From: a virus
IMG/VR virus record: IMGVR_UViG_3300030202_002850
Location: 1 to 49,115 of that record
Reading direction: 5' to 3' (one strand)
Length of the DNA stretch: 49,115 nucleotides
The first letter of the stretch is position 1. Each line of letters starts with the position of its first letter. A model generated the notes under the pieces. The model did no database searches and was not told the DNA's origin. It saw nothing but the letters and a program-made list of their open reading frames with translations. The position numbers and the translations under genes are program-made. Of the stretch, positions 1-11,720 are shown piece after piece.

Positions 1-2
1 TA

Positions 3-236
3 AGGATAAACGAAGTATGTAAAATTATTTCCCCATCCCTCTTCCACACAGGATGCATGCGGAAAGATGAAATAACTGAAGCTCTCGTAAACACCATAAA
101 AACCCTAAAGACTGACGGATTTGTCTTACACAGCAAACCAAGGTTAAGATACGCAGTGACAAGGGTTCACCATGAAATGCAGAGCTACGAAAAAACCTAC
201 AGAAATAAAGATACTGGGATTCCAGTACACCATTAA
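3..236 (+). CDS. 5'-truncated ORF, unknown function
   Basis: An open frame runs from the window edge to a TAA at 234-236, giving about 77 residues with no start codon needed inside the window. An in-frame ATG at 57-59 follows a Cys-rich turn (TGCMRKDE). The protein would be basic and mixed in composition, and I recognise no family. It overlaps the peptidase-like gene at 172-510 by 65 bases in another frame. This is long for a phage gene pair, so one of the two may end or start elsewhere. It is probably the tail of a gene that begins left of the window. Confidence 0.35.
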   Translation, partial: RINEVCKIISPSLFHTGCMRKDEITEALVNTIKTLKTDGFVLHSKPRLRYAVTRVHHEMQSYEKTYRNKDTGIPVHH

Positions 237-510
237 ATGGATTGAAGAATGCTCAGCCGGGGAAAACCTCGGATGGTGTGACACTACTGCATTAACTATT
301 TCTATAGTATCCAACCAACCAAGCACTGCACTAGCAAATACATTTCTTCACGAAGTAATCCACGCAATAAATTACTCAATGAACATAGACAGTGGAGACG
401 AAGAAAAGCTAACCAATAGACTAGCTAATGGTCTCTGCTCTGTATGGTCTGAAAATCCCAAGGTATGGTCTTGGTGGAGCGGTTTGTTTAAACCCATCAA
501 GAACAAGTAG
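172..510 (+). CDS. Small zinc-metallopeptidase-like phage protein
   Basis: A 112-residue protein. Residues 60-64 read HEVIH, an HExxH zinc-binding signature in a helix (TFLHEVIHAINYSM), followed by a helical part containing ERLANG-like text (KLTNRLANGL). Small phage proteins of about 100-130 residues with this order (beta-rich start, HExxH helix, conserved NGL near the C-terminus) are common and are thought to be metallopeptidases, but their substrates are unknown. The ATG lies in AGGGTTCACCATG with no clear Shine-Dalgarno. A downstream acidic residue (E at about position 79) could be the third zinc ligand. It ends in TAG at 508-510 and converges with a possible minus-strand micro-gene. Confidence 0.7.
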   Translation: MKCRATKKPTEIKILGFQYTIKWIEECSAGENLGWCDTTALTISIVSNQPSTALANTFLHEVIHAINYSMNIDSGDEEKLTNRLANGLCSVWSENPKVWSWWSGLFKPIKNK

Positions 511-640
511 TGCCAGACTTCTCATTGCTGAGCCTGTAAGCCTGTCTGAGAGCGTTTCTAAGTATCTTGAGAGCTTCTTCGCTCTTTGTGTATTTATCTT
601 CATTCAGTGCATTCTCAAGGCTTTGGATTAGATCAGACAT
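497..640 (-). CDS. Possible 47-residue protein, antisense end overlaps peptidase gene
   Basis: On the minus strand an ATG at 640-638 opens a 47-residue frame ending in TGA at 497-499. The product is predicted to be a single charged amphipathic helix with regular leucine spacing (LIQSLENALNE, ALKILRNALRQAYRL). The composition looks like a real small phage protein. No Shine-Dalgarno is visible upstream. It would overlap the 3' end of the convergent gene at 172-510 by 14 bases. I do not recognise a family. The alternative is a chance ORF antisense to a leader. Confidence 0.35.
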   Translation of the reverse strand: MSDLIQSLENALNEDKYTKSEEALKILRNALRQAYRLSNEKSGTTCS

Positions 641-729
641 GGGCGAAACAGCCTACACTATTTCAAGGAAGTAAGGGAGACCTTTTTGGGAAATTTTTCA
701 GAAATCTCGAAAAGGCATATATGTAGTGA

Positions 730-760
730 GAGGAGACATGGGCTGGTCGCCCCGCTCCTC
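730..760 (+). other. Two-tier GC-rich hairpin in a gene-free stretch
   Basis: GAGGAG (730-735) pairs with CTCCTC (755-760). Inside it GGGC (740-743) pairs with GCCC (749-752) around a short loop. A C-rich run and TTTT follow at 761-774. It could be a weak terminator or an RNA element. The rest of 641-960 shows no convincing gene, only an AT-rich tract (about 857-885) and a degenerate copy of the palindromic box. Confidence 0.4.
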
Positions 761-906
761 CCCCCTCCCCTTTTGAACACCCCCACAAATCCCCCAATAA
801 AAAGGCAAACAAACAAAGGAAAAAGCAAAACAACAAGAAACCCCAATGAAAACGCTGTTTATTTAATATATATAAATATTAGGCAAAGCTTTTATTTCAT
901 AAGCTC

Positions 907-926
907 AATATCTGTGCCAGTTATTA
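907..926 (-). repeat. Palindromic box, degenerate copy
   Basis: AATATCTG then TG then CCAGTTATTA. Compared with the consensus it has two changes at the centre, and its arms are in the minus orientation. It lies in the AT-rich stretch upstream of the putative large RNA, where a promoter would be expected. Confidence 0.5.
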
Positions 927-963
927 AAAGCGAGGGGGGGATATATAGCGAACGGGTAAAGCT

Positions 964-986
964 TTTTCCATCGGTGGAAATTTTTC
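964..986 (+). terminator. Probable rho-independent terminator upstream of the large RNA
   Basis: TTTCCA (965-970) pairs with TGGAAA (975-980) around a TCGG tetraloop and is followed by TTTTT (981-985). The flanking A/T runs make it readable from either strand. It would isolate the 990-1588 RNA region from upstream transcription, or mark the end of a leader. Confidence 0.55.
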
Positions 987-989
987 ACT

Positions 990-1588
990 TAGTGTAAGTT
1001 CACTACGCTTCGTGATTTGAATGATGATTCAAACAATGAATGCCGAACTTGTTGCAGTCTCTGGGACGAAGTAACCCAGACAGTTTATTTAGTAAGAAAG
1101 TGATGGCTAAATCAAGAGACCGGAATGACCCCCGCTTTTGTTAAGTTCGCGATCGGCCAAGAAGTTGGCGACGATGACCACTGACAAATTAAGACTCGAT
1201 CCAGTAGCGCGGATTTACGATAAGGCGGCACACATGCTAAATCGGAATAATTCTACGGAATATGCCTTTCCTTAAAACTGGACAGCGGACATGTCTTGAA
1301 ACGATCCGCACCGTGACCCACTAAGTTTTGGATCTCTTCAAAGCTTGTCGGGTCGAGATCCCCGCCCTTTGGCGGGGGAACCCCTCGACCTACCAAGTTA
1401 ATCTTTAAACGAGTATTGAGTTCACAATTGCCGCCCTTTGGGTCTGCAAGGTCACAACTGAGATCCCGCCATAAAATGGGCTTTTCAATCTCAGGGCGCA
1501 CAAGAAACTAATTGTCGATACTTCCGAGTAAATCCAGCGGACGCAATTGCGCTTTATAAATGAAGTAAGAGCCTTTTGGCTCCTTTCT
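990..1588 (+). ncRNA. Putative large structured non-coding RNA (about 600 nt)
   Basis: No frame here codes convincingly, but strong helices are packed along it. TTTGAAT 1016-1022 pairs with ATTCAAA 1027-1033. TCTGGG 1060-1065 pairs with CCCAGA 1075-1080. GCCAA 1156-1160 pairs with TTGGC 1165-1169 (loop GAAG). GCGGA 1285-1289 pairs with TCCGC 1305-1309. GGTCGAG 1351-1357 pairs with CTCGACC 1384-1390 and encloses CCCCGCC 1360-1366 with GGCGGGG 1371-1377. CTGAGAT 1458-1464 pairs with ATCTCAG 1488-1494. CGCAATTGCG lies at 1542-1551. A terminator hairpin closes the element. Large ornate RNAs of the GOLLD and ROOL classes, known from phages and prophages, have this size and density, but I cannot assign the class by eye. 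The 5' boundary is a guess. Confidence 0.6.
1569..1588 (+). terminator. Terminator at the 3' end of the putative large RNA
   Basis: GAGCC (1569-1573), loop TTTT, GGCTC (1578-1582), then a pyrimidine/T-rich tail CTTTCT. The stem is short but clean. It directly abuts a perfectly symmetric copy of the palindromic box (1588-1608). Confidence 0.5.
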
Positions 1589-1608
1589 AATATCTGGCTC
1601 AGATATTA
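1588..1608. repeat. Palindromic box, perfectly symmetric copy
   Basis: Arms TAATATCTG and CAGATATTA are exact reverse complements around GCT. This symmetric version lies between the RNA terminator and the leader of the first gene of the accessory block, where an operator would be expected. Confidence 0.75.
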
Positions 1609-1612
1609 GACA

Positions 1613-1676
1613 GGAGATAAAAATCTCCACTTCCCCCCAAATGCGGGAAGTTTAACCAAAAAATAATACACACAAA
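1613..1676 (+). promoter_or_regulatory. Structured 5' leader with two hairpins
   Basis: GGAGAT (1613-1618) pairs with ATCTCC (1623-1628) across AAAA. ACTTCCC (1629-1635) pairs with GGGAAGT (1645-1651). The leader then reads TTTAACCA and an A-rich ACACACAAA tract into the ATG at 1677. No Shine-Dalgarno sits at normal spacing. Similar leaders (hairpin, TAACCAT, A-rich tract) precede the genes at 2379, 3254, 5239 and, without an obvious hairpin, 7364. Confidence 0.5.
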
Positions 1677-2237
1677 ATGAAAAACAAAATCGAAAAGATC
1701 GCAAGTGAAGCCGCAACTGTAAAAGCTGAAAAGCGTATTTCTTCTGAGGAATTACCTGAGCTTGTTACTTGTGAAAAAGTTAAGTTTGAGAATGAGGATG
1801 ATGGGCATATTTCTGGTGATACAGAAACAGTTGAGATCAAAAAACTTCGCACTACAATTCAAGGCGCTGCAAAGTCAATCGCTAAACAAGGCAAAGTTTT
1901 ACATGATGCAATTGTTGAGGCAATTGAGATACACGAAGTTTCAAGAGAAACAATTATTAAATGGGTTGTAGATTGTGGGTATAGTGAATCACGCGCCCGT
2001 GATTTAGTCGCTCCGACTTGGCAAGAGAATCACGGTAAATCTACAAAGGGAAAGAAAAAGGGATCAACAAAAAATAAGGACAAAGTACAAGCGTTGATGA
2101 AATACGCTCGTAGCCTTTGCTCAGATGATGCAGAAGCTTCTAAGACTCTACGCGCTGCTCAACGTCAAATTGATGCCGCGCGAAAAGCTTCTAAGGAAGC
2201 TCCAGAAAACGTAGTTGAATTGGAAAAAGCCGCTTAA
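1677..2237 (+). CDS. Hypothetical helical, lysine-rich protein
   Basis: A 186-residue protein, mostly predicted helix. It has an acidic N-terminal third, a middle region (residues about 60-115) whose spacing loosely suggests a helix-turn-helix (VSRETIIKWVVDCGYSESRARDLV), a very basic linker (KSTKGKKKGSTKNKDK), and an Ala/Lys-rich C-terminus. I recognise no family. The basic linker and HTH-like middle would fit nucleic-acid binding, but this is inference. It is the first gene after the putative large RNA and has its own structured leader. A palindromic box begins on its stop codon and a strong terminator follows, so it is a single-gene unit that may be highly expressed. Confidence 0.75.
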   Translation: MKNKIEKIASEAATVKAEKRISSEELPELVTCEKVKFENEDDGHISGDTETVEIKKLRTTIQGAAKSIAKQGKVLHDAIVEAIEIHEVSRETIIKWVVDCGYSESRARDLVAPTWQENHGKSTKGKKKGSTKNKDKVQALMKYARSLCSDDAEASKTLRAAQRQIDAARKASKEAPENVVELEKAA

Positions 2238-2255
2238 TAACTGGGCCAGTTATAA
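2235..2255 (+). repeat. Palindromic box on the stop codon
   Basis: TAATAACTGG, centre G, CCAGTTATAA. The first TAA is the stop codon of the gene at 1677-2237. It is followed by a small hairpin (GAGATAATAATATCTC, 2257-2272) and then the terminator. Confidence 0.8.
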
Positions 2256-2282
2256 CGAGATAATAATATCTCAGTACAGGAC

Positions 2283-2310
2283 ATCGCTCTTCGGAGCGAT
2301 TTTCCTTTTT
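2283..2310 (+). terminator. Strong rho-independent terminator
   Basis: ATCGCTC (2283-2289), tetraloop TTCG, GAGCGAT (2294-2300), followed by TTTTCCTTTTT. This is a textbook intrinsic terminator separating the gene at 1677 from the small-gene block. Confidence 0.9.
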
Positions 2311-2320
2311 AGTATCTACT

Positions 2321-2341
2321 CAATAATTGGGCCAGATATTA
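2321..2341 (+). repeat. Palindromic box upstream of a new transcription unit
   Basis: CAATAATTGG, centre G, CCAGATATTA. It has one mismatch in the left arm. It sits just after the terminator at 2283-2310 and before the leader of the gene at 2379, and is one of the few copies not attached to a stop codon. Confidence 0.75.
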
Positions 2342-2344
2342 AAA

Positions 2345-2370
2345 AGGAGAATCGTTTCTCCTGTAACCAT
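2345..2370 (+). promoter_or_regulatory. Leader hairpin plus GTAACCAT element
   Basis: AGGAGA (2345-2350) pairs with TCTCCT (2357-2362), immediately followed by GTAACCAT (2363-2370) and an A-rich run into the ATG at 2379. The AGGAGA is a Shine-Dalgarno-like sequence, but it lies 28 bases from the start and is hidden in the stem. The arrangement recurs at 3222-3245 and 5184-5198. Confidence 0.5.
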
Positions 2371-2378
2371 ATATAAAA

Positions 2379-2777
2379 ATGAGTAAATTAGAAACATACA
2401 TGAGTGATAAAGACGCAGATATCTACGGAAAATCTATAGTATTGGGATTGATGCGAACTATAGAAATTGAAGACATCCCTGTTGATGTTTTAGAAAAGGC
2501 TAACAAATCTCTCCCTGAGAAAGTTCTTCCCCATGATGGGTCGGTTGCCTTGTTTGGTTGGTTGAAAAATGGAGCTAAGGCAAATCATCCCTTGAACCGC
2601 GAAAGAAGGATCTCAAAGGAAGTGCATCGGTGCATGAATTTATCAGGGCGCAGATTTGCGCTGGTTGATAATGATTTTGATCCAGATTATAAGCGCAAGC
2701 TCGACATTCAAAGCAAAGAAATAACTAGGCTTAATAAAGTTATAGACAGGATTAGGGGTGCAGTAAGTGAGGATTAA
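2379..2777 (+). CDS. Hypothetical protein
   Basis: A 132-residue protein of unknown family. The N-terminal half is acidic. The C-terminal third is a likely coiled coil (SKEITRLNKVIDRIRGAV). Internal HPLNRERRISKEVHRCM is basic. It starts after the hairpin/GTAACCAT leader and ends on a palindromic box whose last base is the A of the next ATG, so it is tightly linked to the gene at 2795. No catalytic motif is visible. Confidence 0.7.
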   Translation: MSKLETYMSDKDADIYGKSIVLGLMRTIEIEDIPVDVLEKANKSLPEKVLPHDGSVALFGWLKNGAKANHPLNRERRISKEVHRCMNLSGRRFALVDNDFDPDYKRKLDIQSKEITRLNKVIDRIRGAVSED

Positions 2778-2795
2778 TAACTGGGCCAGATATTA
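2775..2795 (+). repeat. Palindromic box spanning stop and start codons
   Basis: TAATAACTGG, centre G, CCAGATATTA. The first three bases are the stop of the upstream gene and the last base is the A of the next ATG. The box is therefore the whole intergenic region and leaves no room for a Shine-Dalgarno. Confidence 0.9.
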
Positions 2796-3013
2796 TGAAC
2801 TATATTAACAAACTACAAGAGGACAATGCCGAGCTTCGGAGTGAATTGAAATCGGCCTACAGCATGGCATTAGAGTTAAAAATCTACGCCATGTCTCCAA
2901 AATTCATGGGCGAATCTGGATACGGCGGTAAAACCTACATGTCAAAAGAAGATGTGATTAGGTTTGCTGAGAACATATTAGGAGAGATGCCTTCTGTTGT
3001 GCTAAATGATTAA
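2795..3013 (+). CDS. Hypothetical coiled-coil protein
   Basis: A 72-residue protein. Residues 1-30 form a likely coiled coil (INKLQEDNAELRSELKSAY). They are followed by a Gly-rich turn (GESGYGGKTY) and a helix with KEDVIRFAENILGEM. Its function is unknown. The start codon abuts the palindromic box and has no Shine-Dalgarno, so translation may depend on coupling or on the box sequence. The next box starts on its stop codon. Confidence 0.65.
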   Translation: MNYINKLQEDNAELRSELKSAYSMALELKIYAMSPKFMGESGYGGKTYMSKEDVIRFAENILGEMPSVVLND

Positions 3014-3031
3014 TAACTGGGCCAGATATGA
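3011..3031 (+). repeat. Palindromic box spanning stop and start codons
   Basis: TAATAACTGG, centre G, CCAGATATGA. The left end is the stop of the 2795 gene. The right arm has changed to include the ATG (3028-3030) of the next micro-gene. Confidence 0.85.
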
Positions 3032-3150
3032 AGATACTAAAAACAATAGGGTGGGCTATGCTCACAATAATAATGTACTCAGCCATTAGCTTTATGCTCA
3101 CTGCTTATCTGTTATCAGATACGATTAGTGGGGTGAAGCTATGGCAATAA
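3028..3150 (+). CDS. 40-residue single-pass membrane protein
   Basis: The ATG at 3028 lies inside the palindromic box and opens a 40-codon frame ending in TAA at 3148-3150. The product is a hydrophobic helix (WAMLTIIMYSAISFML, residues about 9-24) with a Lys-bearing N-terminus and a short tail (DTISGVKLWQ). Such micro-proteins are frequent in phage accessory blocks and may act on the host membrane, but function cannot be assigned. Confidence comes from precise placement between box and downstream structures, not from homology. Confidence 0.5.
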   Translation: MKILKTIGWAMLTIIMYSAISFMLTAYLLSDTISGVKLWQ

Positions 3151-3164
3151 CAATAACCGAAAGG

Positions 3165-3236
3165 GGTGCAGTCTTAGCACTGCACCTTCCCTAGTATGTC
3201 GTCATGTGACGCTGTACTAGGGAGGGTTTCTCCCTC
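3165..3236 (+). other. Three consecutive hairpins, structured RNA or leader
   Basis: GGTGCAGT (3165-3172) pairs with ACTGCACC (3179-3186). CCCTAGTA (3189-3196) pairs with TACTAGGG (3215-3222) with a smaller internal stem. GAGGG (3222-3226) pairs with CCCTC (3232-3236). The first two stems are perfect 8-bp helices separated by two bases. There is no T-run, so it is not a plain terminator. It leads into GTAACCAT and the gene at 3254, so it may be a regulatory leader or a small RNA. Confidence 0.55.
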
Positions 3237-3245
3237 TGTAACCAT
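3222..3245 (+). promoter_or_regulatory. Leader hairpin plus GTAACCAT element
   Basis: The stem GAGGG/CCCTC is followed by TGTAACCAT (GTAACCAT at 3238-3245) and then the ATG at 3254. It has the same order as the leaders at 2345-2370 and 5184-5198. Confidence 0.45.
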
Positions 3246-3253
3246 CAAGCATT

Positions 3254-3433
3254 ATGACAAGTGCAAACACAAACAAGCGGAGTCTACCCGTGAATAACGG
3301 TCGGGCTGTTATAAGCAGAAACGTCAAGGCATGGCAAAATCGCAAGGCTGTGACAAGTTTCAATAGAAAATGGGGATCTTTGGCATTGGCCAAGGGCGGG
3401 GCATCACTGGATGCTTTATTTCCTAACCTTTAA
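3254..3433 (+). CDS. Small basic hypothetical protein
   Basis: A 59-residue protein from the ATG at 3254 to the TAA at 3431. It is strongly basic (many Arg/Lys, e.g. NKRSLP, SRNVKAWQNRKAV, FNRKWGS), with a Gly/Ala-rich end. It could bind nucleic acid, but no family is recognised. The leader carries the hairpin and GTAACCAT element, and the next palindromic box begins on its stop codon. Confidence 0.6.
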   Translation: MTSANTNKRSLPVNNGRAVISRNVKAWQNRKAVTSFNRKWGSLALAKGGASLDALFPNL

Positions 3434-3451
3434 TAACTGGGCCAGATATTA
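3431..3451 (+). repeat. Palindromic box spanning stop and start codons
   Basis: TAATAACTGG, centre G, CCAGATATTA. It starts on the stop of the 3254 gene and ends on the A of the ATG at 3451. Confidence 0.9.
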
Positions 3452-3801
3452 TGAGTCGCTATTACGGTAAACCAGTATCAGCACCAGAGGGTTGGTTGTT
3501 CGTTGCTTGGGCTGGAACCAAGGAAATAAAAGAGGATCTCAAAGCATTGGGGTGCAAGTTCTGTTCCTTAATGCCAGACGGTAGAGAGAAGAAGGGTTAT
3601 TACTCTCCTCCTGAGAACCATGCTAAGGCTATGGCTTTGATGCCTGATCCTACAGACATGAAGAAGTGGACTCCAATTAAGGGAGATACCTTTGATGTCA
3701 GGGATGTACTCAAGGACAAGTACGGAGCTAGGTGCATATGGGTTGTGCCTAAGGATAAGCACAGGGAAGCACAAGAATTTGCTGATGCAGTATCAAGCTA
3801 A
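3451..3801 (+). CDS. Hypothetical protein with two similar segments
   Basis: A 116-residue protein. Two segments look alike: DLKALGCKF...GYYSPPENHAKAM and VLKDKYGARCIWVVPKDKHREAQ. Each has a leucine-lysine helix, a Gly turn, aromatic strands, a Pro and a basic/His helix. This resembles the short motif of DUF5710-type domains (a G-A-R/K, W-Y-V-P pattern), which often accompany DNA-metabolism proteins. The match is by eye and tentative. The gene is bounded by palindromic boxes at both ends and has no Shine-Dalgarno. Confidence 0.65.
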   Translation: MSRYYGKPVSAPEGWLFVAWAGTKEIKEDLKALGCKFCSLMPDGREKKGYYSPPENHAKAMALMPDPTDMKKWTPIKGDTFDVRDVLKDKYGARCIWVVPKDKHREAQEFADAVSS

Positions 3802-3819
3802 TAACTGGGCCAGATAAAT
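3799..3819 (+). repeat. Palindromic box on the stop codon
   Basis: TAATAACTGG, centre G, CCAGATAAAT. It begins on the stop of the 3451 gene. The right arm is partly degraded. A real Shine-Dalgarno (GAAAGGA) follows before the next gene. Confidence 0.8.
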
Positions 3820-3833
3820 AGAAAGGAAATAAT

Positions 3834-4061
3834 ATGCCACACGGATACAAAGTAATCATTGAAACAGTAAAACAAAATAAAATGACAGATCAAGAATTCA
3901 TAGACGAGGTGTATGAGTTAGCATTTGGAGACAACGCAAGGCACAGACTTACGGAAGAACAAGGCCCGTATGAACATGAAGAGGTTTTGGAAAAGCTAAA
4001 GCAGCAAGACGAATGGTCATACAAATGGGAAGAACAAGAAGGAGTTGGGAGCTTTGAATAA
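3834..4061 (+). CDS. Acidic hypothetical protein
   Basis: A 75-residue, strongly acidic protein (Glu-rich C-terminal half, EHEEVLEKLKQQDEW). Mostly predicted helix. No family recognised. The start is supported by AAAGGA about 8 bases before the ATG. The stop is followed two bases later by the next ATG, so the two genes form a translational pair. Small acidic phage proteins sometimes mimic DNA, but nothing specific supports that here. Confidence 0.65.
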   Translation: MPHGYKVIIETVKQNKMTDQEFIDEVYELAFGDNARHRLTEEQGPYEHEEVLEKLKQQDEWSYKWEEQEGVGSFE

Positions 4062-4062
4062 T

Positions 4063-4374
4063 ATGAGTAGGTTAGCAATAGTTATTGCACTATCGTTATG
4101 CGGCTACGCTAAAGCAGAACCTGAATTATTGGTCAAGCCTAGCGACAAAGAGATACTAATCACGGTTTCTAATTACCCTACAGGAAGGGCTGTCGCATTA
4201 TTAGTTAGCGATAACCTTAATGAATGGACATTGGCAACTGATAATGGCGGGGATTTTTATATCCATTACGCAAGGGAAACAAATGAACCAGTAAGCTGGG
4301 CTGTGCCAGTGAATAGTGACAAAGCTTTCTTCAAGGCTATTGTCTTAACATACAAAACAGAAAGGAACAAATGA
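4063..4374 (+). CDS. Small exported protein with a signal peptide
   Basis: A 103-residue protein starting at the ATG at 4063, which directly follows the upstream stop. An in-frame earlier start at 4045 would add six residues and lies inside the previous gene. Residues 1-18 form a good signal peptide (MSRLAIVIALSLCGYAKA, with AKA before EPE as a cleavage site). The mature part is beta-rich (ILITVSNYPTGRAVALLVS) and has no recognised motif. It likely acts in the periplasm or outside the cell, perhaps on surface properties or superinfection. Its TGA overlaps the next ATG (ATGA). Confidence 0.7.
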   Translation: MSRLAIVIALSLCGYAKAEPELLVKPSDKEILITVSNYPTGRAVALLVSDNLNEWTLATDNGGDFYIHYARETNEPVSWAVPVNSDKAFFKAIVLTYKTERNK

Positions 4375-5039
4375 AACGAAGCGTCCACACAACAGGATAC
4401 CCGCAAGGAGCGGGGAAAACCTACCCAATAACTGGGCCAGATATTGATTACGACAAGTACTGCAAGGTTAACACAAAGAACAAGAACATCCTTAAAAAGA
4501 TTAAGTTACAGTTAAAGTTGGCTGAAGAATTAGCATTCACACTATCAGTAAACTTTGTTTGGCCTGAAGCGCACAATGGCAAGGCGATAGCATACAATGT
4601 TGTTGGTGATAGCCAAACCTTTAACGGTAAGAAAGTGCTAAACCGATACTCAAGAGTAGTGCTCACAAGAATAAACAAGGATGGGACAGAAGATGTCCGA
4701 TCCTTTTGTGTGTCTACCTTGCCAAGAGCAATGATAAATTACATCTGCAAACAGAAAGGTATCAACCAAAGTATGCCGAGATTATTCAGGCTCAATGTTT
4801 GGTTTAAGGATGAGGCTCACAGTGTTCAGTTTGTGTCAGGCAAGAGGTCGCAAGCTAGATCACTCAAGGATGCTTTATTCCATGAAGATATACATAAAAT
4901 ACTCCATGAATTAGGAGGCATACCTAAGCCTGTACCGATGGGCCATCGTATTGAGGTGAAGTTAGATCCAGTGCAAGACCCTGATGTAATCGAGAAGCTC
5001 GATGACTTGCAGCGATTAAAGCTTGGGTGGCACTTATAA
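4371..5039 (+). CDS. Hypothetical protein with an HExxH-like motif
   Basis: A 222-residue protein. The start is supported by AAAGGAAC upstream and by ATGA overlap with the preceding gene. Near residue 170 it has FHEDIHKILHELGG, where HEDIH fits HExxH and could bind zinc, but the rest of the protein matches no peptidase family I know. The middle part is rich in beta strands and basic residues. A full copy of the palindromic box (4426-4446) lies inside the coding sequence and encodes PITGPDI near residue 20. The gene may have been extended across an old boundary. It ends on another box. Confidence 0.65.
   Translation: MKRSVHTTGYPQGAGKTYPITGPDIDYDKYCKVNTKNKNILKKIKLQLKLAEELAFTLSVNFVWPEAHNGKAIAYNVVGDSQTFNGKKVLNRYSRVVLTRINKDGTEDVRSFCVSTLPRAMINYICKQKGINQSMPRLFRLNVWFKDEAHSVQFVSGKRSQARSLKDALFHEDIHKILHELGGIPKPVPMGHRIEVKLDPVQDPDVIEKLDDLQRLKLGWHL
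4426..4446 (+). repeat. Palindromic box inside a coding sequence
   Basis: CAATAACTGG, centre G, CCAGATATTG. Its core matches the consensus exactly, but it lies within the first 25 codons of the 4371 gene and is read in frame. It suggests either that the real start lies downstream or that the box tolerates translation. Confidence 0.75.
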
Positions 5040-5054
5040 CTGGGCCAGATATAA
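5034..5054 (+). repeat. Palindromic box on the stop codon
   Basis: TTATAACTGG, centre G, CCAGATATAA. The stop TAA (5037-5039) forms part of the left arm. It opens the regulatory region before the MoxR-type gene. Confidence 0.85.
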
Positions 5055-5077
5055 CCCCATACTAATACAGGGATACA

Positions 5078-5189
5078 AGCTAGGGCTTCAACTCTAGCTA
5101 TTCCATTCGTATATTAACACATATAAATAGTTATTGACATGTGTTATTCAATATGCAATACTCTTTGTTGATGTACGAATGGAGTAGCT
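5078..5189 (+). promoter_or_regulatory. Nested inverted repeats around the 5134 promoter
   Basis: A 16-base sequence at 5096-5111 (ending TTCCATTCGTA) recurs as its reverse complement at 5174-5189 with one mismatch, bracketing the promoter. A smaller hairpin AGCTAG/CTAGCT (5078-5083, 5094-5099) overlaps the left arm. AACACAT (5116-5122) and ATGTGTT (5139-5145) form a 7-bp inverted repeat around the -35 box. This looks like an operator and/or switchable leader. Confidence 0.55.
5134..5162 (+). promoter_or_regulatory. Sigma70-type promoter for the MoxR-VWA operon
   Basis: TTGACA (5134-5139), 17-base spacer, AATACT (5157-5162). The -35 is consensus and the -10 matches at four of six positions. 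Transcription would start near 5170 and run into the structured leader before the ATG at 5239. This is the clearest host-type promoter in the window. Confidence 0.7.
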
Positions 5190-5198
5190 CGTAACCAT
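5184..5198 (+). promoter_or_regulatory. Leader GTAACCAT element in a hairpin loop
   Basis: GTAGC (5184-5188) can pair with GCTAC (5198-5202), placing GTAACCAT (5191-5198) largely in the loop. The A-rich AATACACACAAAA follows up to the ATG at 5239, as in the leader of the gene at 1677. Confidence 0.4.
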
Positions 5199-5238
5199 GC
5201 TACCCCGATAAGTAATAATAAAATACACACAAAATATT

Positions 5239-6357
5239 ATGGCAAAACAAACAGCATTAGAAGCGATGACAGTTGATATCGCTACAGCTAAGAGAGCAGC
5301 AGCAGTTTGCTTTCAGAACAAACGCCCCTTCATTGTATGGGGAAAGTACGGATGCGGTAAGTCTCAGATGATTGCTCAACTCGCAGAGAGTATGAGTGCA
5401 ACTCTGTACGACTTCCGAACATCAGATAAGGAGCCGCCCGACTTGGCTGGACTCCCTGTAGCAGATCAAGTGAACCGATGTGTTCAGTGGCTTATTAATC
5501 ACGACACGATTCCTTGGAAGCGATACGATGACAAAGGCAAGCACATCAAACCTAAGTACAAGAGAGCTATTCTCTTCCTCGATGAGTTCGATAGGAGCAT
5601 GGTCGAGGTGATGAACGTGGCTCTTCAGATACTACTAGACCGTAAGGTTAATGGGCATGAGCTAGAGGATAACGTCCTTATATGTGCCGCTGGTAACGGT
5701 GAGTCTGACTCTGGCACTACACCTATCACTGGTGCAGCAGCTACTAGGATGACTCACATTTACATTGATCCAACATTGGATTCATCCATCAAAGGATTCC
5801 AAGAGTACGCAAATAACAAAGGCATGGCTCCTTGGTTGTCATCTTATGTAGGATTCCGCAAGGAAGAGATACAAGGAGATCAGTTCACATTCGTTGAACG
5901 TGCTGAGCCTACGTTTAGAACATTGGAGTGGGCGCATGACTTGATTGAGTCTTGTTATAAGATTGGCACTGACTGGGCAACTAGCCCGTCTGTTATGAAC
6001 TGTCTTGTGTACGGAACAGTAGGGCAAGTGGTTGGTCGTAGCATGATGGCATATCGCAAGATGTGTACTGAGTGTCCTCAACCTGACGACATCTACGATT
6101 CACCCCTTCAGACAAAATTACCTAAGGACGCTGGTGTTTACTACGCTACTGGTGTGGCGTTAGTGCAAGACATTAAACCTAAAGGCAAGTCTGAAGACAT
6201 GAGCAAAACCAAAGCTGCATGTAGATATGTAGGGCGATGGCCTGAGGAACAGCAAGCTACGTTCTTTCGCAGAGCATCTGAAGCCAAGCTGAAAGTTGCG
6301 GCGACACCTGAGTACAAGGCGTGGGAGAAAGAATATAGGTCACTGCAAAGCAAGTAA
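5239..6357 (+). CDS. MoxR/CobS-type AAA+ ATPase
   Basis: A 372-residue AAA+ ATPase. The Walker A motif GKYGCGKSQ lies at residues 35-43 and the Walker B motif LFLDEFDR at about 112-119. It is followed by a sensor-type segment (ICAAGNGES) and an arginine-bearing stretch (GAAATRMTH). The arrangement fits the MoxR/RavA/CobS branch, whose members remodel partner complexes using ATP, usually together with a VWA-domain protein. Such a partner is encoded two genes downstream (7364). Expression is from the promoter at 5134. The leader has no Shine-Dalgarno but has the A-rich ACACACAAA tract. The C-terminal 150 residues are specific to this family and unassigned. Confidence 0.85.
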   Translation: MAKQTALEAMTVDIATAKRAAAVCFQNKRPFIVWGKYGCGKSQMIAQLAESMSATLYDFRTSDKEPPDLAGLPVADQVNRCVQWLINHDTIPWKRYDDKGKHIKPKYKRAILFLDEFDRSMVEVMNVALQILLDRKVNGHELEDNVLICAAGNGESDSGTTPITGAAATRMTHIYIDPTLDSSIKGFQEYANNKGMAPWLSSYVGFRKEEIQGDQFTFVERAEPTFRTLEWAHDLIESCYKIGTDWATSPSVMNCLVYGTVGQVVGRSMMAYRKMCTECPQPDDIYDSPLQTKLPKDAGVYYATGVALVQDIKPKGKSEDMSKTKAACRYVGRWPEEQQATFFRRASEAKLKVAATPEYKAWEKEYRSLQSK

Positions 6358-6375
6358 TAACTGGCCCAGATATAA
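6355..6375 (+). repeat. Palindromic box on the stop codon (centre C)
   Basis: TAATAACTGG, centre C, CCAGATATAA. The arms keep the plus orientation but the central base is flipped. It begins on the stop of the ATPase gene. Confidence 0.85.
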
Positions 6376-6395
6376 CCCAATAACAATATACGATT

Positions 6396-7343
6396 ATGAA
6401 ATTAGTAACCAAAGACAATGTAATACTAAAGCGGTTCAATGAGAACTGCATGCTGGTTAAGATCGGCATCAAGCTCCCCGGCTCCAAGCAATTGATTGTA
6501 CGGGCGGCTCAAGAGGCAGCGAACACGTTCAAGGCTGACGCTGAATCAATAGACAGTCACATTCGCAAGTTCACAAAGAAAGACTTGTCAGCCGTGCAAG
6601 AGATTGCAACTCAAGCTAGGCAGAAGATTAAGTTCTTCACAAGTACATGGGATGATCATGGATGGCGCATCTGCAAGACAGAGTTCTACCCTGACCTATC
6701 CCGTGAGCTTGAAGAACTGAAGCTCAAGTTTGATGATGCAGTTAGTACCATAGTTAATGATAGGTATGAAGAGATCAAAGCTGACAGTCAACGCCGTGCT
6801 GGTGACTTGTGGGAAGATGTTAGATTCCCTGAGAAGGAAGAGTTCGCTACTCAATTCGACTTCATCATTGAAGTGGACGAGATAAAAGATCCTAAGGATG
6901 TGAAGATCAGTGGCCCTGCTGGACTAATGAAGGAAGTTCAGGAGCAGATGCAAAAGCGCAATGAGACAAAGCTTAAAGAAGCACAAACAGAAACACTTGA
7001 AAGGGTTAAGAGTGTGCTTGCTGATACTGTATCAAGGCTAAAGCATTACGATGCAGGGAAGGCTAAGTTTAATGACGCTAAAAAGAAAGGTGACAAACCT
7101 ACTAAGGTTAGGATATCTGACAGCGTTATTAATAATGTAGTCGAGGTTGGTAAAGTCATTAAGCAGATCAACCTAACTGATGATGAGTCTCTGAACAAAG
7201 CAGCCGACTCGTTAACAGAAGTATTCTCTCGCTTCCAAGGCGAGGACAACATGAAAGAATTAAAAGAGAATTCTAAGAAAAGAAAGGAAGTAATCAAAGC
7301 ATCAGAAGATGTGACCGAGGTTCTTCAATCAATCGAACTGTAA
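6396..7343 (+). CDS. Helical partner protein of the MoxR-VWA module (DUF3150-like)
   Basis: A 315-residue protein, almost entirely helical, with long coiled-coil segments (residues about 105-130 and 170-230) and many charged residues. Proteins of this size placed between a MoxR/CobS-like ATPase and a VWA metallopeptidase in phages and bacteria are often labelled DUF3150. I think it belongs there, but I assign it from position and shape and not from a motif. It may bridge ATPase and VWA protein or recognise the client. It ends in TAA inside GTAACCAT, the leader element of the next gene. Confidence 0.65.
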   Translation: MKLVTKDNVILKRFNENCMLVKIGIKLPGSKQLIVRAAQEAANTFKADAESIDSHIRKFTKKDLSAVQEIATQARQKIKFFTSTWDDHGWRICKTEFYPDLSRELEELKLKFDDAVSTIVNDRYEEIKADSQRRAGDLWEDVRFPEKEEFATQFDFIIEVDEIKDPKDVKISGPAGLMKEVQEQMQKRNETKLKEAQTETLERVKSVLADTVSRLKHYDAGKAKFNDAKKKGDKPTKVRISDSVINNVVEVGKVIKQINLTDDESLNKAADSLTEVFSRFQGEDNMKELKENSKKRKEVIKASEDVTEVLQSIEL

Positions 7344-7347
7344 CCAT
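7340..7347 (+). promoter_or_regulatory. GTAACCAT leader element overlapping a stop codon
   Basis: GTAACCAT, where TAA (7341-7343) is the stop of the 6396 gene. The A-rich ATAACACACA tract follows, then the ATG at 7364. No hairpin is evident at this copy. Confidence 0.35.
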
Positions 7348-7363
7348 ATATCAATAACACACA

Positions 7364-8851
7364 ATGAACAAAGTAACAGAAGCAATCAACAACATAACTG
7401 AAGAGGAGTGGGCGGACTTACTCAAAACAGCTAAGTCTAAAGTTAATATTGGACACGACTATATATACACATCTCATCCAATAGGTGTTCCGTTCGTGGC
7501 CAAGTGGCAAGTCATACCTGACCCTTCAGTAGAAACAATGTGTACTGATGGTAAGACTCTGAGGTATAACCCTGAGTTCGCAAACAATCTGTCAGTCAAC
7601 GCAAACAAGTTTGTCATACTCCATGAAGCTGGGCATCTACTGTTTGCTCATCACCTGAGAAGAGAGGATCGCAATCCAGACTTGTGGAATGTTGCAGCAG
7701 ACTTGGCAATGAACAGCCACTTCGTCCCCTACATTAAACAGCTAGGAGTGTGGCATGAATTAGTAAATGATATTGGGATACTGCTACCCCGTGAAGGGAA
7801 GTTCACAAAGTTACCAGAGAACAAGTCAACTGAGTGGTACTACCATGAGTTAGAGATGGAGCTTCACGAACCTCCGCCTCCTCCGGGTGGTAGGCCATGC
7901 GATGACGGAAAGCCTGACGATGATGAGGGTAAAGGCAAGGGTGATAACAACGGAGATCCGAATGAACCTGAAGACTCCAAAGGTCAAGACCAAGACTCTG
8001 GTAAGGGCGAGAGCGGTAGCTCAAGTTCAAATTCTGGAAGCTCTGGCGGCAATGACTCTCCATCACAACCCAGTACCACTAAGTCATTAAGCGAGCGACT
8101 TAAAGATTACCTTGGCGATGAGGGTAAGATTGTTGGTCGTGTCGAGGACTCTGCGACCATGTGTGAAGAGGGCGCTGATGTTGCGGAGAATGAGTACCAA
8201 GAAACAGTATCCGAAGCAGTGGTTCTTATGAAGTCTCAAGGTCATGGCTTTGGCAACGAGTTGGACTTCCTTGAGGACATGCTTACACGAAAGGCAATCA
8301 ACGATGTGTCATGGTTGAAGAGGTTGTTAGTTCAGTATGCTCCGGGTGGACGCAACCATAAGAGAGTTAACAAGCGTTACTCATCTGGCGGTATCATCTT
8401 CCCTAAGAATGAAACCAAGGGTAGGAGTCACGGCCTTATCATGGTTGATACCTCTGGGTCTATGGGTAATGCAGAGTGTGACGAGGCATTTGTTCAGATG
8501 AACAAGATCATTCAAGAGTTCCCTCACACCAAGATAACAATGGTGCAGTGCGACACTGACATACATGAGGAATCTATACGAGAGTTCAGTCGAAGCGACT
8601 TACCATTACGAGTGCCTCGCAAATGGTACGGACGGGGAGGCACTGACATGGAGCCAGTATTAAAGTACGCTAAGGAAAACAAATACAAGTTTGATTGGGC
8701 GGTGTGCATCACTGACATGGAATGGGATTGGAAGAACTGTACTGATAGCGGAATAGTTACCAAGTTTGTTGCAGTTAATCCATACAAGCCGTTAGATATC
8801 AACATGCCGCAACGAGGGTACAGTTATGAAGAGGTTTATGTGAATGTATAA
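7364..8851 (+). CDS. Metallopeptidase-like plus VWA domain protein (DUF2201 type)
   Basis: A 495-residue two-domain protein. Residues 87-91 are HEAGH, an HExxH zinc site (VILHEAGHLLFAHHLRR), in the N-terminal putative metallopeptidase domain. Residues about 168-245 are a low-complexity acidic Pro/Gly/Ser linker. The C-terminal third is a VWA domain with the MIDAS motif DTSGS (from residue 362), a later Thr in GRGGTDME, and an Asp in CITDMEW. This architecture is typical of DUF2201/CobT-like partners of MoxR ATPases. The presence of all MIDAS positions suggests metal-dependent partner binding. The gene closes the module begun at 5239 and ends on a palindromic box. The cellular target is unknown. 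Confidence 0.85.
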   Translation: MNKVTEAINNITEEEWADLLKTAKSKVNIGHDYIYTSHPIGVPFVAKWQVIPDPSVETMCTDGKTLRYNPEFANNLSVNANKFVILHEAGHLLFAHHLRREDRNPDLWNVAADLAMNSHFVPYIKQLGVWHELVNDIGILLPREGKFTKLPENKSTEWYYHELEMELHEPPPPPGGRPCDDGKPDDDEGKGKGDNNGDPNEPEDSKGQDQDSGKGESGSSSSNSGSSGGNDSPSQPSTTKSLSERLKDYLGDEGKIVGRVEDSATMCEEGADVAENEYQETVSEAVVLMKSQGHGFGNELDFLEDMLTRKAINDVSWLKRLLVQYAPGGRNHKRVNKRYSSGGIIFPKNETKGRSHGLIMVDTSGSMGNAECDEAFVQMNKIIQEFPHTKITMVQCDTDIHEESIREFSRSDLPLRVPRKWYGRGGTDMEPVLKYAKENKYKFDWAVCITDMEWDWKNCTDSGIVTKFVAVNPYKPLDINMPQRGYSYEEVYVNV

Positions 8852-8866
8852 CTGGGCCAGATATTA
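8846..8866 (+). repeat. Palindromic box on the stop codon
   Basis: GTATAACTGG, centre G, CCAGATATTA. The stop of the VWA gene (8849-8851) is part of the left arm. Confidence 0.85.
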
Positions 8867-8885
8867 ACTTAAACAAAACAAAAGC

Positions 8886-9707
8886 ATGAACAATTATATA
8901 TCAAAATTCAACGGGACAGCGAACGATAATGCGTTTGCGAAAGTTGCAAGCGAGCTATGCAACGAGCTATCAATGCTCCTTTCTGTTCGCGGTATAGAGC
9001 CTGAGAGGACTGAGGTTTCTTCTAGTGATAGAGCATCTTCAATAGGATTCTATTGGGATGAGTTCGGTGATCCAATCATAGGTAATCACTGCTTGTTTCT
9101 TGACTACGATGAAGAGTCAGAAGAGTTGTCCTTAGGGTATGAATGGCCATCATTCATTGACCACATGGGTGCAACTAGAAGTTTAAGACCAACCGATTGG
9201 TATCAAACTTCACATAAACATGAGATGTCGGATGCTCAGAAGTTATTAAGTTCTGTCACTATTAGGAAATGGATAAGGAACCAAAGACATAAGATACCTT
9301 TAGCTCTTCTAAGTTCTCCTGAGAAATTAATTAAAAGAATAGAAAGGGAGCTTGATATCTATAAGGCATTTATAGATACGCTTATTCCTTATACTAATCA
9401 ACGAATTAAAAGCGTAGATAAGATAAAAGAATCATTAAAGAATAGGGATATGTGGATGCAAGGTTTCAAGCCAGAACACAACCACCACCACACCAGTAGT
9501 TGGTACTACCATGATTCTCTCGGAGAATCTGTGCAAGGATTTGTTGAGGTGGATGATGATTGGGCATCCAGTGAAGGCAAAGGAATAACTGAAGAAGAAA
9601 TGGAAATACGTTTTACATTTAAGGACGGTGCTGTTAGTAGGGAAAAGTATTCCAATATTGTTAGACAAGTAGCCAATATAATTAAGAAAGAAATTAAACA
9701 GGCATGA
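8886..9707 (+). CDS. Hypothetical protein
   Basis: A 273-residue protein with no family recognised. The N-terminal half is mixed and acidic (CLFLDYDEESEEL). The middle contains a helical basic part (RKWIRNQRHKIPLALL, IKRIERELDIYKAF). A histidine cluster (EHNHHHTSSWYYH) near residue 200 could bind metal. The ATG follows an A-rich tract without a Shine-Dalgarno. Its TGA overlaps the next ATG, starting a chain of coupled small genes. Confidence 0.7.
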   Translation: MNNYISKFNGTANDNAFAKVASELCNELSMLLSVRGIEPERTEVSSSDRASSIGFYWDEFGDPIIGNHCLFLDYDEESEELSLGYEWPSFIDHMGATRSLRPTDWYQTSHKHEMSDAQKLLSSVTIRKWIRNQRHKIPLALLSSPEKLIKRIERELDIYKAFIDTLIPYTNQRIKSVDKIKESLKNRDMWMQGFKPEHNHHHTSSWYYHDSLGESVQGFVEVDDDWASSEGKGITEEEMEIRFTFKDGAVSREKYSNIVRQVANIIKKEIKQA

Positions 9708-10159
9708 AAAGAACAGAAGCAGTAACCGCTTTTATCGAGAAGCGTCAGAAAAAAGTAGGAACACTTGAGTCAACTTTATTAAATGATAAAGATTATGGAC
9801 TGAAGCTACATGGTAACACTATCGCAAAGTGGGATGGTGAAAAACTGTATGGCACATTAGCTGGTTGGCCTACTGTTACGACTCGCAAGTGGCTTAACGA
9901 CTTGTGTGATCAAGTATATAGTAGCGTGTCAGAAGATGTTGAGTTGTATGGAAAACCAAGTCTCTGTCCTAGCATGAAGCTAATTAAGAGGTGTTATTTC
10001 TATCAACATAAGCATGAACAGTATATGTCTAGAGTCATATCAACTGTAAGGAAAGCTGAACCAATTGAAATGAAATGCAAAGGGGTAGGCTACATACTTG
10101 AGCCAAAGCACGATGATAAGACCGTGCTGGATTTCAATGAATGGATGAGGATATTGTAA
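9704..10159 (+). CDS. Conserved-looking phage hypothetical protein
   Basis: A 151-residue protein, coupled to the gene before by ATGA and to the gene after by TAATG. The segment LKLHGNTIAKWDGEKLYGTLAGWPTVTT, split here as LKLHGNTIAK and YGTLAGWPTVTTRKWLN, resembles a small phage family with a 'HGN-IA...GW-T-TT-R-LN' pattern seen in many tailed phages, whose function is unknown as far as I know. It is basic and probably cytoplasmic. Confidence 0.65.
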   Translation: MKRTEAVTAFIEKRQKKVGTLESTLLNDKDYGLKLHGNTIAKWDGEKLYGTLAGWPTVTTRKWLNDLCDQVYSSVSEDVELYGKPSLCPSMKLIKRCYFYQHKHEQYMSRVISTVRKAEPIEMKCKGVGYILEPKHDDKTVLDFNEWMRIL

Positions 10160-10374
10160 TGCCAGATGAGTATGTTATTAAACTAACACAAAGGGAAAAA
10201 GATTCTCTTAAATGCAAAACGTTTCAAGAGTTTCTGATAAAGGCTGAGAGCAACGGCCATCCTTACTGGACTCATGCAATTAAAAACATAACCGAACAAA
10301 TACATGAACAAAACAATAACAAAAAAGCGAAAGAAAAAAGATATTCTCAGCTTGAACTACAAGATAGTGTCTAA
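10159..10374 (+). CDS. Hypothetical small protein
   Basis: A 71-residue protein. I chose the ATG at 10159 because it overlaps the upstream stop as TAATG. An in-frame start at 10141 would lie inside the previous gene. The product is charged and helical (LTQREKDSLKCKTFQEFL) with an Asn/Lys-rich C-terminus. Its function is unknown. It overlaps the next gene by about 70 bases in another frame. Confidence 0.5.
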   Translation: MPDEYVIKLTQREKDSLKCKTFQEFLIKAESNGHPYWTHAIKNITEQIHEQNNNKKAKEKRYSQLELQDSV

Positions 10375-10843
10375 GAACTGCCCCTTCTTTCACAGCCTTA
10401 AAGGTTTTATTGAAGTGTGCGCTGACTGTGACGGGTGGAATGACGAGCAGCTAAATGATCTCTTTGGTATTAGCGTTAACGAGGTACATGAATTCTATGA
10501 TAAGTACACCATGCGGTCATGGAATGATGAGGTGCTTATCCCTATTGGGGTTTATCAGTTTGTTCTCTCTGCGATTAAGTCAAACAAGTATATATCTGAC
10601 CACACTGCCAACAAAGAAGACATTGCTATTAGGGTATGTACCGAAAGCATTAAGTCTGGGAGATGGTTTAAGACCGAGCCTGTACTGAAATACTTCTACA
10701 TCAGTAAAAATGCAAATGGCACGTTCACCTACAAGTTCAAGGAGTCTCAGTCAATTGTAATGAAGAGTGAAGTGCCTGAGTTATCAACAAGGTACGGAAC
10801 AGGAAGCATACACAACCAACAAGTATTAGTTAGAAACCCATGA
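10304..10843 (+). CDS. Hypothetical protein
   Basis: A 179-residue protein with a very basic N-terminus (NKTITKKRKKKD), a Cys/aromatic-rich middle (CPFFHS, CADCDGW) and a mostly beta C-terminal half. No family recognised. The long overlap with the previous gene suggests the true start may lie downstream (no good alternative ATG is seen before residue 90). It is coupled to the next gene by ATGA. Confidence 0.6.
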   Translation: MNKTITKKRKKKDILSLNYKIVSKNCPFFHSLKGFIEVCADCDGWNDEQLNDLFGISVNEVHEFYDKYTMRSWNDEVLIPIGVYQFVLSAIKSNKYISDHTANKEDIAIRVCTESIKSGRWFKTEPVLKYFYISKNANGTFTYKFKESQSIVMKSEVPELSTRYGTGSIHNQQVLVRNP

Positions 10844-11067
10844 ATAAACCTAAACATGCAACTCACGTTAAACTGCAAACAGTTTATGAAGGAACCAATC
10901 GCGTTGCGATTGAAGATATAAAAAACATGGACTGCTTCAGGGGTTCTCCCGGTATTATTACATACTTGAGGCAGCTTAGAGGAAACAACTGGGAAGAGCT
11001 TGGCTCTTTTGAGTTCGATGGTAAATGGCCTTTAACTGAAAAAGATAATGAGACAACAACCAAATAA
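10840..11067 (+). CDS. Hypothetical small protein
   Basis: A 75-residue protein of unknown function, starting on an ATGA overlap. It contains YLRQLRGNNWEELGSFEFDG and an acidic, Thr-rich end. Probably cytoplasmic. The next small gene overlaps its last 20 bases. Confidence 0.55.
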   Translation: MNKPKHATHVKLQTVYEGTNRVAIEDIKNMDCFRGSPGIITYLRQLRGNNWEELGSFEFDGKWPLTEKDNETTTK

Positions 11068-11221
11068 CTACGACTACGAAGTGAGTGACGCACTGCCTAT
11101 GAGTGAGCTTGGAGGAATCAAGGAAGAGGTAGAAGAGGGACTCAAACGGTTTGAGACTAAGCAAGCAAACAAAAAGCCCACATGGAAATGGGTTGAAGAT
11201 AAACCAAAAAAAAATGAGTGA
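11048..11221 (+). CDS. 57-residue hypothetical protein
   Basis: ATG at 11048-11050 to TGA at 11219-11221. The product has a Gln/Asn/Tyr N-terminus (RQQPNNYDYE), an acidic helix (GGIKEEVEEGLKRFE) and a Lys/Trp-rich tail (KKPTWKWVEDKPKK). The composition is protein-like, and it fills the gap between coupled neighbours: it overlaps the previous gene by 20 bases and the next by 8. No family recognised. Confidence 0.5.
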   Translation: MRQQPNNYDYEVSDALPMSELGGIKEEVEEGLKRFETKQANKKPTWKWVEDKPKKNE

Positions 11222-11708
11222 TGAAATACCAACAACTTATTGGGTAAAGATACAAGGAACTAATTACAGGCAACCGGGCTACTCTGAAGAGTTAACATAC
11301 AGACATCCGAGATATATTCATACTCTTGACTATCAAGTTGCTAATATTTTTACAGAAATAATTCCATATATTATAGCACCAACACAAGAGTTCATTGTTC
11401 ACCATGAAGCTCACCCTGAAATAATAAGGAAGACTGAAGCTGATCTTATTAAGTGGGGGGAGAGGCATTGTTTTATTACAATATTAATTAACCCGAAAGA
11501 CAATGAGTTTCTTAACTCTCCATTGCTATACAAGGAGAGATTCTGGAACCCTAATGTGTTTAATGGAATCGTTGATCAAGGAGATTACATAACACAAAAA
11601 CAGTGCGTTAAAATATTAAATCATTTGAGCATGCTGTATCCATTTATAGATGAGTACAGGATTAACCAAATGATTTCCGGGCGTAAGCCTATAGTGCAGT
11701 ACCAATAA
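11214..11708 (+). CDS. Hypothetical protein
   Basis: A 164-residue protein. The ATG at 11214 (MSDEIPTTYW) overlaps the upstream gene's end. A further upstream in-frame start at 11151 would read through the previous gene and gives an unlikely basic leader. The body is beta/alpha with YRHPRYIHTLDYQVANIF and a Lys/Glu-rich middle. Function unknown. Confidence 0.6.
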   Translation: MSDEIPTTYWVKIQGTNYRQPGYSEELTYRHPRYIHTLDYQVANIFTEIIPYIIAPTQEFIVHHEAHPEIIRKTEADLIKWGERHCFITILINPKDNEFLNSPLLYKERFWNPNVFNGIVDQGDYITQKQCVKILNHLSMLYPFIDEYRINQMISGRKPIVQYQ

Positions 11709-11720
11709 ATAAATAGACAA

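Follow-up and report, generated by a model that had tools for sequence, protein, structure and literature searches.

A candidate large folded RNA at a fixed locus in uncultivated tailed phages

The window analyzed here comprises 49,115 nucleotides, bases 1–49115 of the 71,220-base IMG/VR record IMGVR_UViG_3300030202_002850. The phage is about 71 kb in size. A sister contig spans the end and the start of the record, which points to a circular or circularly permuted map and a record that is close to complete. PHROGs matches to a DnaB helicase, a Sak4-like protein, an exonuclease, a terminase large subunit and tail-fibre/head-decoration proteins identify it as a tailed bacteriophage. A match to a transposase-named PHROG is located at 11721–12539 on the + strand (phrog_4285, E 9.1e-48). 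Some of the proteins tested against an isolate collection had no match, and others were matched at less than 60% identity, among them the ATPase (745 records) and the SprT-like protein (10 records). The gene-free stretch described below gave no match in this collection except one at chance level. An N4-like phage, with a giant virion RNA polymerase, was considered and rejected on the database results for the 3160-aa protein (Table 1).

The stretch of interest is about 600 nt long and lies between a SprT-like gene and a gene encoding a 186-aa protein (Table 1). It is preceded by an AT-rich, promoter-like element and a GC-rich hairpin, and palindromic boxes are found on both sides. No sigma-70-like promoter was called in 500–1700. 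The fold model of the 186-aa protein is weak, with a mean pLDDT of 56.1. The possibility of one downstream protein family across lineages, suggested by a common GYS motif, was rejected (BLASTP E 0.61 against L024 and 2.1 against L029).

Table 1. Features at the locus and elsewhere in the window
Feature	Position	Strand	Remarks
SprT-like gene (phrog_1233)	172..510	+	upstream of the stretch
47-aa ORF before the AT element	497..640	-	counterparts in L004 (903-1043, 46 aa) and L030 (5441-5593, 50 aa); likeness by eye
AT element CAGAAANNNNGAAANNNCATATAT	699..722	+	putative promoter
GC-rich hairpin directly 3' of the AT element	740..752	+	stem varies among phages (by eye)
Intergenic palindromic box, upstream	907..927		pattern match
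Candidate structured RNA, ~600 nt	986..1590	+	ends approximate; homologues in 5 contigs; no frame beyond chance; no Rfam match
Helix H1	1016..1033	+	UUUGAAU-GAUG-AUUCAAA; clade B GCGAA-GAUG-UUCGC, same loop, stem replaced
Helix H2	1060..1080	+	UCUGGG/CCCAGA; L006 UCUAGG/CCUAGA; L020 CCCGGC/GUCGGG
Helix H5	1285..1309	+	GCGGA/UCCGC; L004 GGGAA/UUCCC; L011 GGGAU/AUCCC; loop core GUCUUG(A/U)AAC
Helix H7	1350..1390	+	outer GGUCGAG/CUCGACC same in both clades; inner stem varies, stays paired; AAC(C/A)CC kept
Helix H9	1458..1494	+	CUGAGAU/AUCUCAG; clade B GGUAGGUUU/AAACCUACC; flanked by invariant CAA and GCGCAC
Terminator-like hairpin, tail CTTTCTAATA	1569..1582	+	GAGCC-UUUU-GGCUC, weak U tail; same hairpin letters in L006, L004, L011, L014
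Intergenic palindromic box, downstream	1588..1608		pattern match
186-aa gene	1677..2237	+	downstream of the stretch; no Pfam/PHROG match; 64% identical in clade B
3160-aa protein	20178-29660	-	no Pfam or PHROG match; PDB only a chance match, E 0.75

The symmetric box noted earlier after the stretch was confirmed, and a single pattern locates 14 such copies between genes, this one included (at 910, 1592, 2239, 2325, 2779, 3015, 3435, 3803, 5038, 6359, 8850, 19290, 35857 and 44817). Each box is a stem-loop with a CTG-NNN-CAG core and AT-rich arms. The boxes often occupy stop-to-start gaps, mostly along the gene direction. Boxes with different arms, CTTATACTGTNACAGTATAAG, are found in the sister phages L024, L030 and L087. 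L029 carries 8–9 copies of TTATACTTAAAAGTATAA, which has an asymmetric center. The box may form a hairpin when the nucleic acid is single-stranded, or serve as the operator of a fast-evolving regulator.

The preliminary description placed a terminator on each side of the stretch. The right-hand one was called by our scan. The left hairpin, at about 966–985, was not called, and its stem is weakened by eye in clade B, the divergent relatives described below. The three sites called in 500–1700 are within chance (mean 1.5, sd 1.3). In L004 the right-hand hairpin was called in its - strand version only; L087 gave no call, and L030 gave 14 vs 2.2.

The stretch does not appear to encode a protein. 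Its longest stop-free run is 84 codons, within the range of shuffled sequences (median 77, 95% value 125), which bears out the preliminary description's statement that no coding frame of quality is present. A reverse 82-aa ORF at 1253–1501 is open over 84 codons in the window and its close relative L006, but is not kept open in L004, L011 and L014, where the run is no longer than 39–40 codons. The absence of a protein-coding frame is expected of a large structured phage non-coding RNA, and no frame is kept between the clades. Stop-free lengths are within chance in seven of eight stretches. L024 is the exception; its 166-codon run on the reverse strand exceeds the 95% value of 127, and the L024 stretch may therefore contain a reverse ORF. 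The higher GC content reported earlier was confirmed, at 0.46 in 990–1588 against 0.41 both upstream (1–989) and downstream (1677–5000).

Dense perfect helices had been the main ground for proposing an RNA, and their number is not above chance. We counted non-overlapping perfect stems with loops of 3–12 in the stretch and in 300 dinucleotide shuffles. There are six stems of at least 5 bp (mean 4.4; as many in 73/300 shuffles), three of at least 6 bp (1.32 expected, 41/300) and two of at least 7 bp (0.34 expected, 15/300). Folding energies are mildly low for either strand (z -1.71 on + and -2.10 on -, 20 shuffles each). In other contigs the single-sequence z is ordinary in L024 (-0.74) and L030 (-0.58), mild in L004 (-1.64) and L087 (-1.86), and low in L025 (-3.46). 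With hairpin density and folding energy near chance, the sequence alone is insufficient for an RNA claim. The credibility of a structured RNA comes instead from conservation in relatives.

Homologous loci were located by protein and pattern scans. Five other IMG/VR contigs, six with the window, have recognizable homologues of the stretch at the same locus in the same gene order. L006 is a close relative, 89.8% identical over window 1–2382 and 93% within the stretch when columns with gaps are set aside. L004, L011 and L014 form clade B and contain divergent homologues. The L020 contig ends inside the stretch. The SprT-like gene is also present in clade B and L087, both found without it; L020, L024, L025 and L030 were reached through it, and L087 through the AT-element pattern. 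In L024, L025, L030 and L087 a largely gene-free region of 490–690 nt occupies the same place, with palindromic boxes on both sides in three of the four. The stretches of L024, L025 and L030 have no blastn similarity to that of the window. We built a model, R1, of 118 positions in the 3' half from the window, L006, L004 and L011. On the + strand it matches these four and L014. Its - strand matches are weak (E 0.012–0.02 in L011, L014 and L004, 1.2 in the window, and one chance match in L006). It detects nothing in L024, L025, L030, L087, L029, L026 and L020. Homology of the first four of these stretches to that of the window is thus positional only.

The AT-element pattern matched 14 viral contigs, nine with the locus context and five without. 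The strict pattern is present in one of 18 loci (L025), and a variant is found in L026 and L029. By eye, the locus is absent from the AT-element matches L084, L085, L090, L091 and L093, from all six matches of a further scan, and from the matches in L008, L009, L013 and L015. Among the 62 loci of the SprT route, L044–L080 were examined by blastn and box count only. L026 ends before the stretch, and L027 and L028 carry reverse-strand genes there. At the L029 locus the AT element, the box and a gene are present without the large stretch. Hairpins also turn over, as seen in a 47-column insertion in L006 and a duplicated hairpin in L087.

Alignment of the homologues revealed stems that are replaced with pairing kept. 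Between the two clades H1, H5, the inner stem of H7 and H9 are replaced yet fully paired, and H2 likewise within the window's clade. For H2, no clear equivalent is visible by eye in clade B. Because it does not vary, the outer stem of H7 is uninformative on covariation. The nested hairpins at 1351–1390 and 1458–1494 singled out in the preliminary description are present, with paired counterparts in the relatives. The covarying stems were hand-picked after viewing the alignments, and every case entered was paired. The H2 loop reads (A/G)C(G/C)AAGUAA, and a joined strand, GCGCAC(A/U)AGAAA, is conserved on changing stems. Together with the constant loops (GAUG, C(G/C)AAGUAA and GUCUUG(A/U)AAC), this strand suggests an RNA that is recognized by a partner or packs on itself. 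Covarying stems are characteristic of large structured phage non-coding RNAs, and their absence in homologues would have argued against the original proposal; the stems do covary, in two alignable lineages only.

A mapping test was used that involves no hand-picking, in which one sequence is folded alone and its relative is read on that fold. On the + strand minimum free energy (MFE) folds, window to L006 gave three compensatory pairs vs 0.44 expected (16/2000) and eight broken pairs vs 14.7 expected (11/2000). L006 to window gave four compensatory pairs vs 0.37 (0/2000), L004 to L011 three vs 0.15 (0/2000), and L011 to L004 two (9/2000). The - strand folds gave zero, four (0/2000), two and two compensatory pairs in the same order. 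Compensatory pairs on MFE folds are higher on + in four of six comparisons and equal in two. The + strand is equal or better, yet the - strand also scores, so the strand preference is mild. In coding controls from window/L006 there was no excess, with zero or one compensatory pair. With a single substitution, the coding control of clade B is uninformative. RNAalifold on window/L006 gave seven compensatory and no broken pairs on +, and five compensatory pairs on -; at most three were found in 40 shuffles and zero to three in coding controls.

Energies from column shuffling were less discriminating. The + strand is better in four of five alignments. Window vs L004 is better on - (z -4.38) than on + (-3.09). 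Four of eight tests on coding controls reached z of -3 or below, down to -4.1, and these energy scores are therefore not decisive. The z of -9.67 for L030/L087 was rejected as evidence, as it derives mostly from the 3' box hairpin and becomes -3.31 without it. Without that hairpin the pair has nine compensatory pairs vs up to nine in shuffles. We do not count L030/L087 as evidence because a coding control does equally well (17 vs 7.28 in the mapping test).

No family in Rfam 15 credibly matches the candidate. At the gathering score no match was found in the window or in six sister loci. A relaxed search gave six chance-like matches in 700–1700, and none with E of 0.5 or less in 1–12000. Four relaxed matches in L087, L024, L025 and L030 include none that is credible in the stretch. 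One of them, outside the stretch and flanked by two phage genes, is a candidate Twister-P1 ribozyme (L025:5965–6042, +, 30.3 bits vs a gathering score of 67.2, E 0.0082). According to the available part of Kretsch et al., GOLLD and ROOL models are included in Rfam (PMC12286853). Neither covariance model matched the stretch at the gathering score, or credibly at relaxed scores. Of the earlier proposal of GOLLD, ROOL or a new class, a large RNA stands as the best reading, and membership of GOLLD or ROOL does not. ARAGORN called no tRNA or tmRNA in the window or in 13 loci including the rest of its record.

Two further motifs were observed in sister phages. GCTCTACCAACTGAG, an exact 15-nt complement of the tRNA D-arm consensus, lies inside the gene-free stretch at L030:6243–6257 and L087:1274–1288, where no tRNA gene was called. 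The match extends to 16 of 18 positions, vs a maximum of 13 among 60 shuffles of each contig's sequence. A repeated motif, CCAGUAAAAACAAGG, occurs with variants in L030 (6037, 6317, 6468), L087 (1032, 1349, 1495, 1563) and L024 (6604). In these loci it is confined to the gene-free stretch. It is absent from the window, L006, L004, L011, L014, L020 and L025.

Homologues are found at the same place, their stems are re-paired, no frame is kept between clades, and no Rfam family matches. The reading we favor, with moderate confidence, is an untranslated folded RNA of about 500–650 nt, most likely on the + strand, that belongs to an undescribed family in uncultivated phages and acts in trans. Its transcription, ends, strand and trans action are all inferred from sequence. 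It would be transcribed from the conserved AT-rich element or from a site closer to the beginning of the RNA, and would end near the terminator-like hairpin. It appears to lie close to the beginning of an operon of the early type, and it might act during takeover or replication. By likeness to GOLLD and ROOL, without membership of either, it probably acts in trans, as a fold whose hairpins are gained and lost.

The main rival, ranked next, places the stretch in the leader of the first operon, where it would act in cis. In this model transcripts would begin at the AT element. RNA polymerase during elongation, or else the following gene, would be the target of the large fold and of the GC hairpin, which would work as an attenuator or, like HK022 put, as an antiterminator. 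This is possible, though we doubt it. The stretch precedes an operon, with a conserved promoter-like element on one side and the following gene on the other; this arrangement fits such a leader, as do the GC hairpin directly 3' of the AT element and the terminator-like hairpin just 5' of the gene. However, at several hundred nucleotides the stretch is far longer than put, and L029 has the AT element, the box and a gene at this place without it. In L024 and L029 the protein encoded by the following gene has no BLASTP similarity to that of the window. The number of terminator calls does not exceed chance in the window, and L087 has none, yet L030 is well above expectation.

An element that functions as DNA, with its palindromes serving a replication origin or a packaging or recombination site, is unlikely. 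The boxes flank the stretch on both sides, some tests are passed by the - strand, window vs L004 has the better energy on -, and the cumulative GC skew, binned at 2.5 kb, reaches its lowest value near 70 kb, about 2–3 kb away on the circular map. That minimum, however, coincides with a change of gene direction and not with the stretch. Loops are kept while stems vary, which is typical of RNA, and both compensatory pairs and alignment energies lean towards the + strand. A fast-evolving spacer with chance structure, its covariation an artefact of a few hand-picked stems, is rated slightly lower still. In its favor, neither the density of helices nor the fold energy departs far from chance, just two lineages can be aligned and the L030/L087 test is equalled by a coding control. 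Against it, four stems are replaced in a fixed context with pairing kept, and compensatory pairs are in excess without hand-picking in window/L006 and clade B, with 0 or 1 in the window/L006 coding controls.

A folded trans-acting RNA remains our preferred reading, and large folded phage RNAs are a kind already known; the family here is undescribed. The literature searched contained no description of it, which is not proof of absence, and Rfam 15 lacks it. More tentatively, these stretches could represent ornate phage RNAs of a new class that has no sequence relation to GOLLD and ROOL, is held at one fixed locus across a whole group of uncultivated phages with gain and loss of hairpins, and has a trans-acting role such as scaffold, cage or sponge. 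The D-arm complement in L030 and L087 could then capture host tRNAs.

To our knowledge, only a small number of large phage RNAs have been described, with functions still to be established. An abundant transcript is characteristic of ROOL, and a homo-oligomeric cage of GOLLD. The put RNA acts in cis on RNA polymerase, suppresses pausing and termination, and is less than 100 nt long. Sponge RNAs of the CsrB/RsmZ type carry a repeated motif. The CCAGUAAAAACAAGG repeats in the sister phages resemble this arrangement (three copies in L030, four in L087, one in L024), but the motif is absent from the window, from the five contigs with recognizable homologues and from L025. In the part of the report by Kretsch et al. 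(2025) available to us, GOLLD and ROOL are phage or prophage RNAs of unknown function that are often near tRNA islands and form cages; many GOLLD members exceed 800 nt, and proximity to tRNA genes is frequent, not general, among them (PMC12286853). On the same partial account, our candidate resembles GOLLD as a large, many-stemmed phage non-coding RNA with one part more variable than another, and ROOL as phage-borne, several hundred nucleotides long and rich in stems (PMC12286853). It differs from GOLLD in being shorter, in having no Rfam match, and in the lack of a tRNA gene in the window, the rest of the record and the sister loci scanned. It differs from ROOL in having no Rfam match and in not being near a tRNA island. 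HK022 put, in the section of the source consulted, is a folded RNA of an early phage transcript that acts in cis (PMC9378689). The position of our stretch would fit a folded RNA of an early transcript by analogy, whereas its length is several hundred nucleotides and its cis role is putative. Human-microbiome RNA candidates are 27–219 bp in the accessible portion of one survey, which has none of about 600 nt (PMC8040213). A further unrelated family at a fixed locus before an operon, together with the L029 locus that lacks it, would offer a direct comparison on what such RNAs do.
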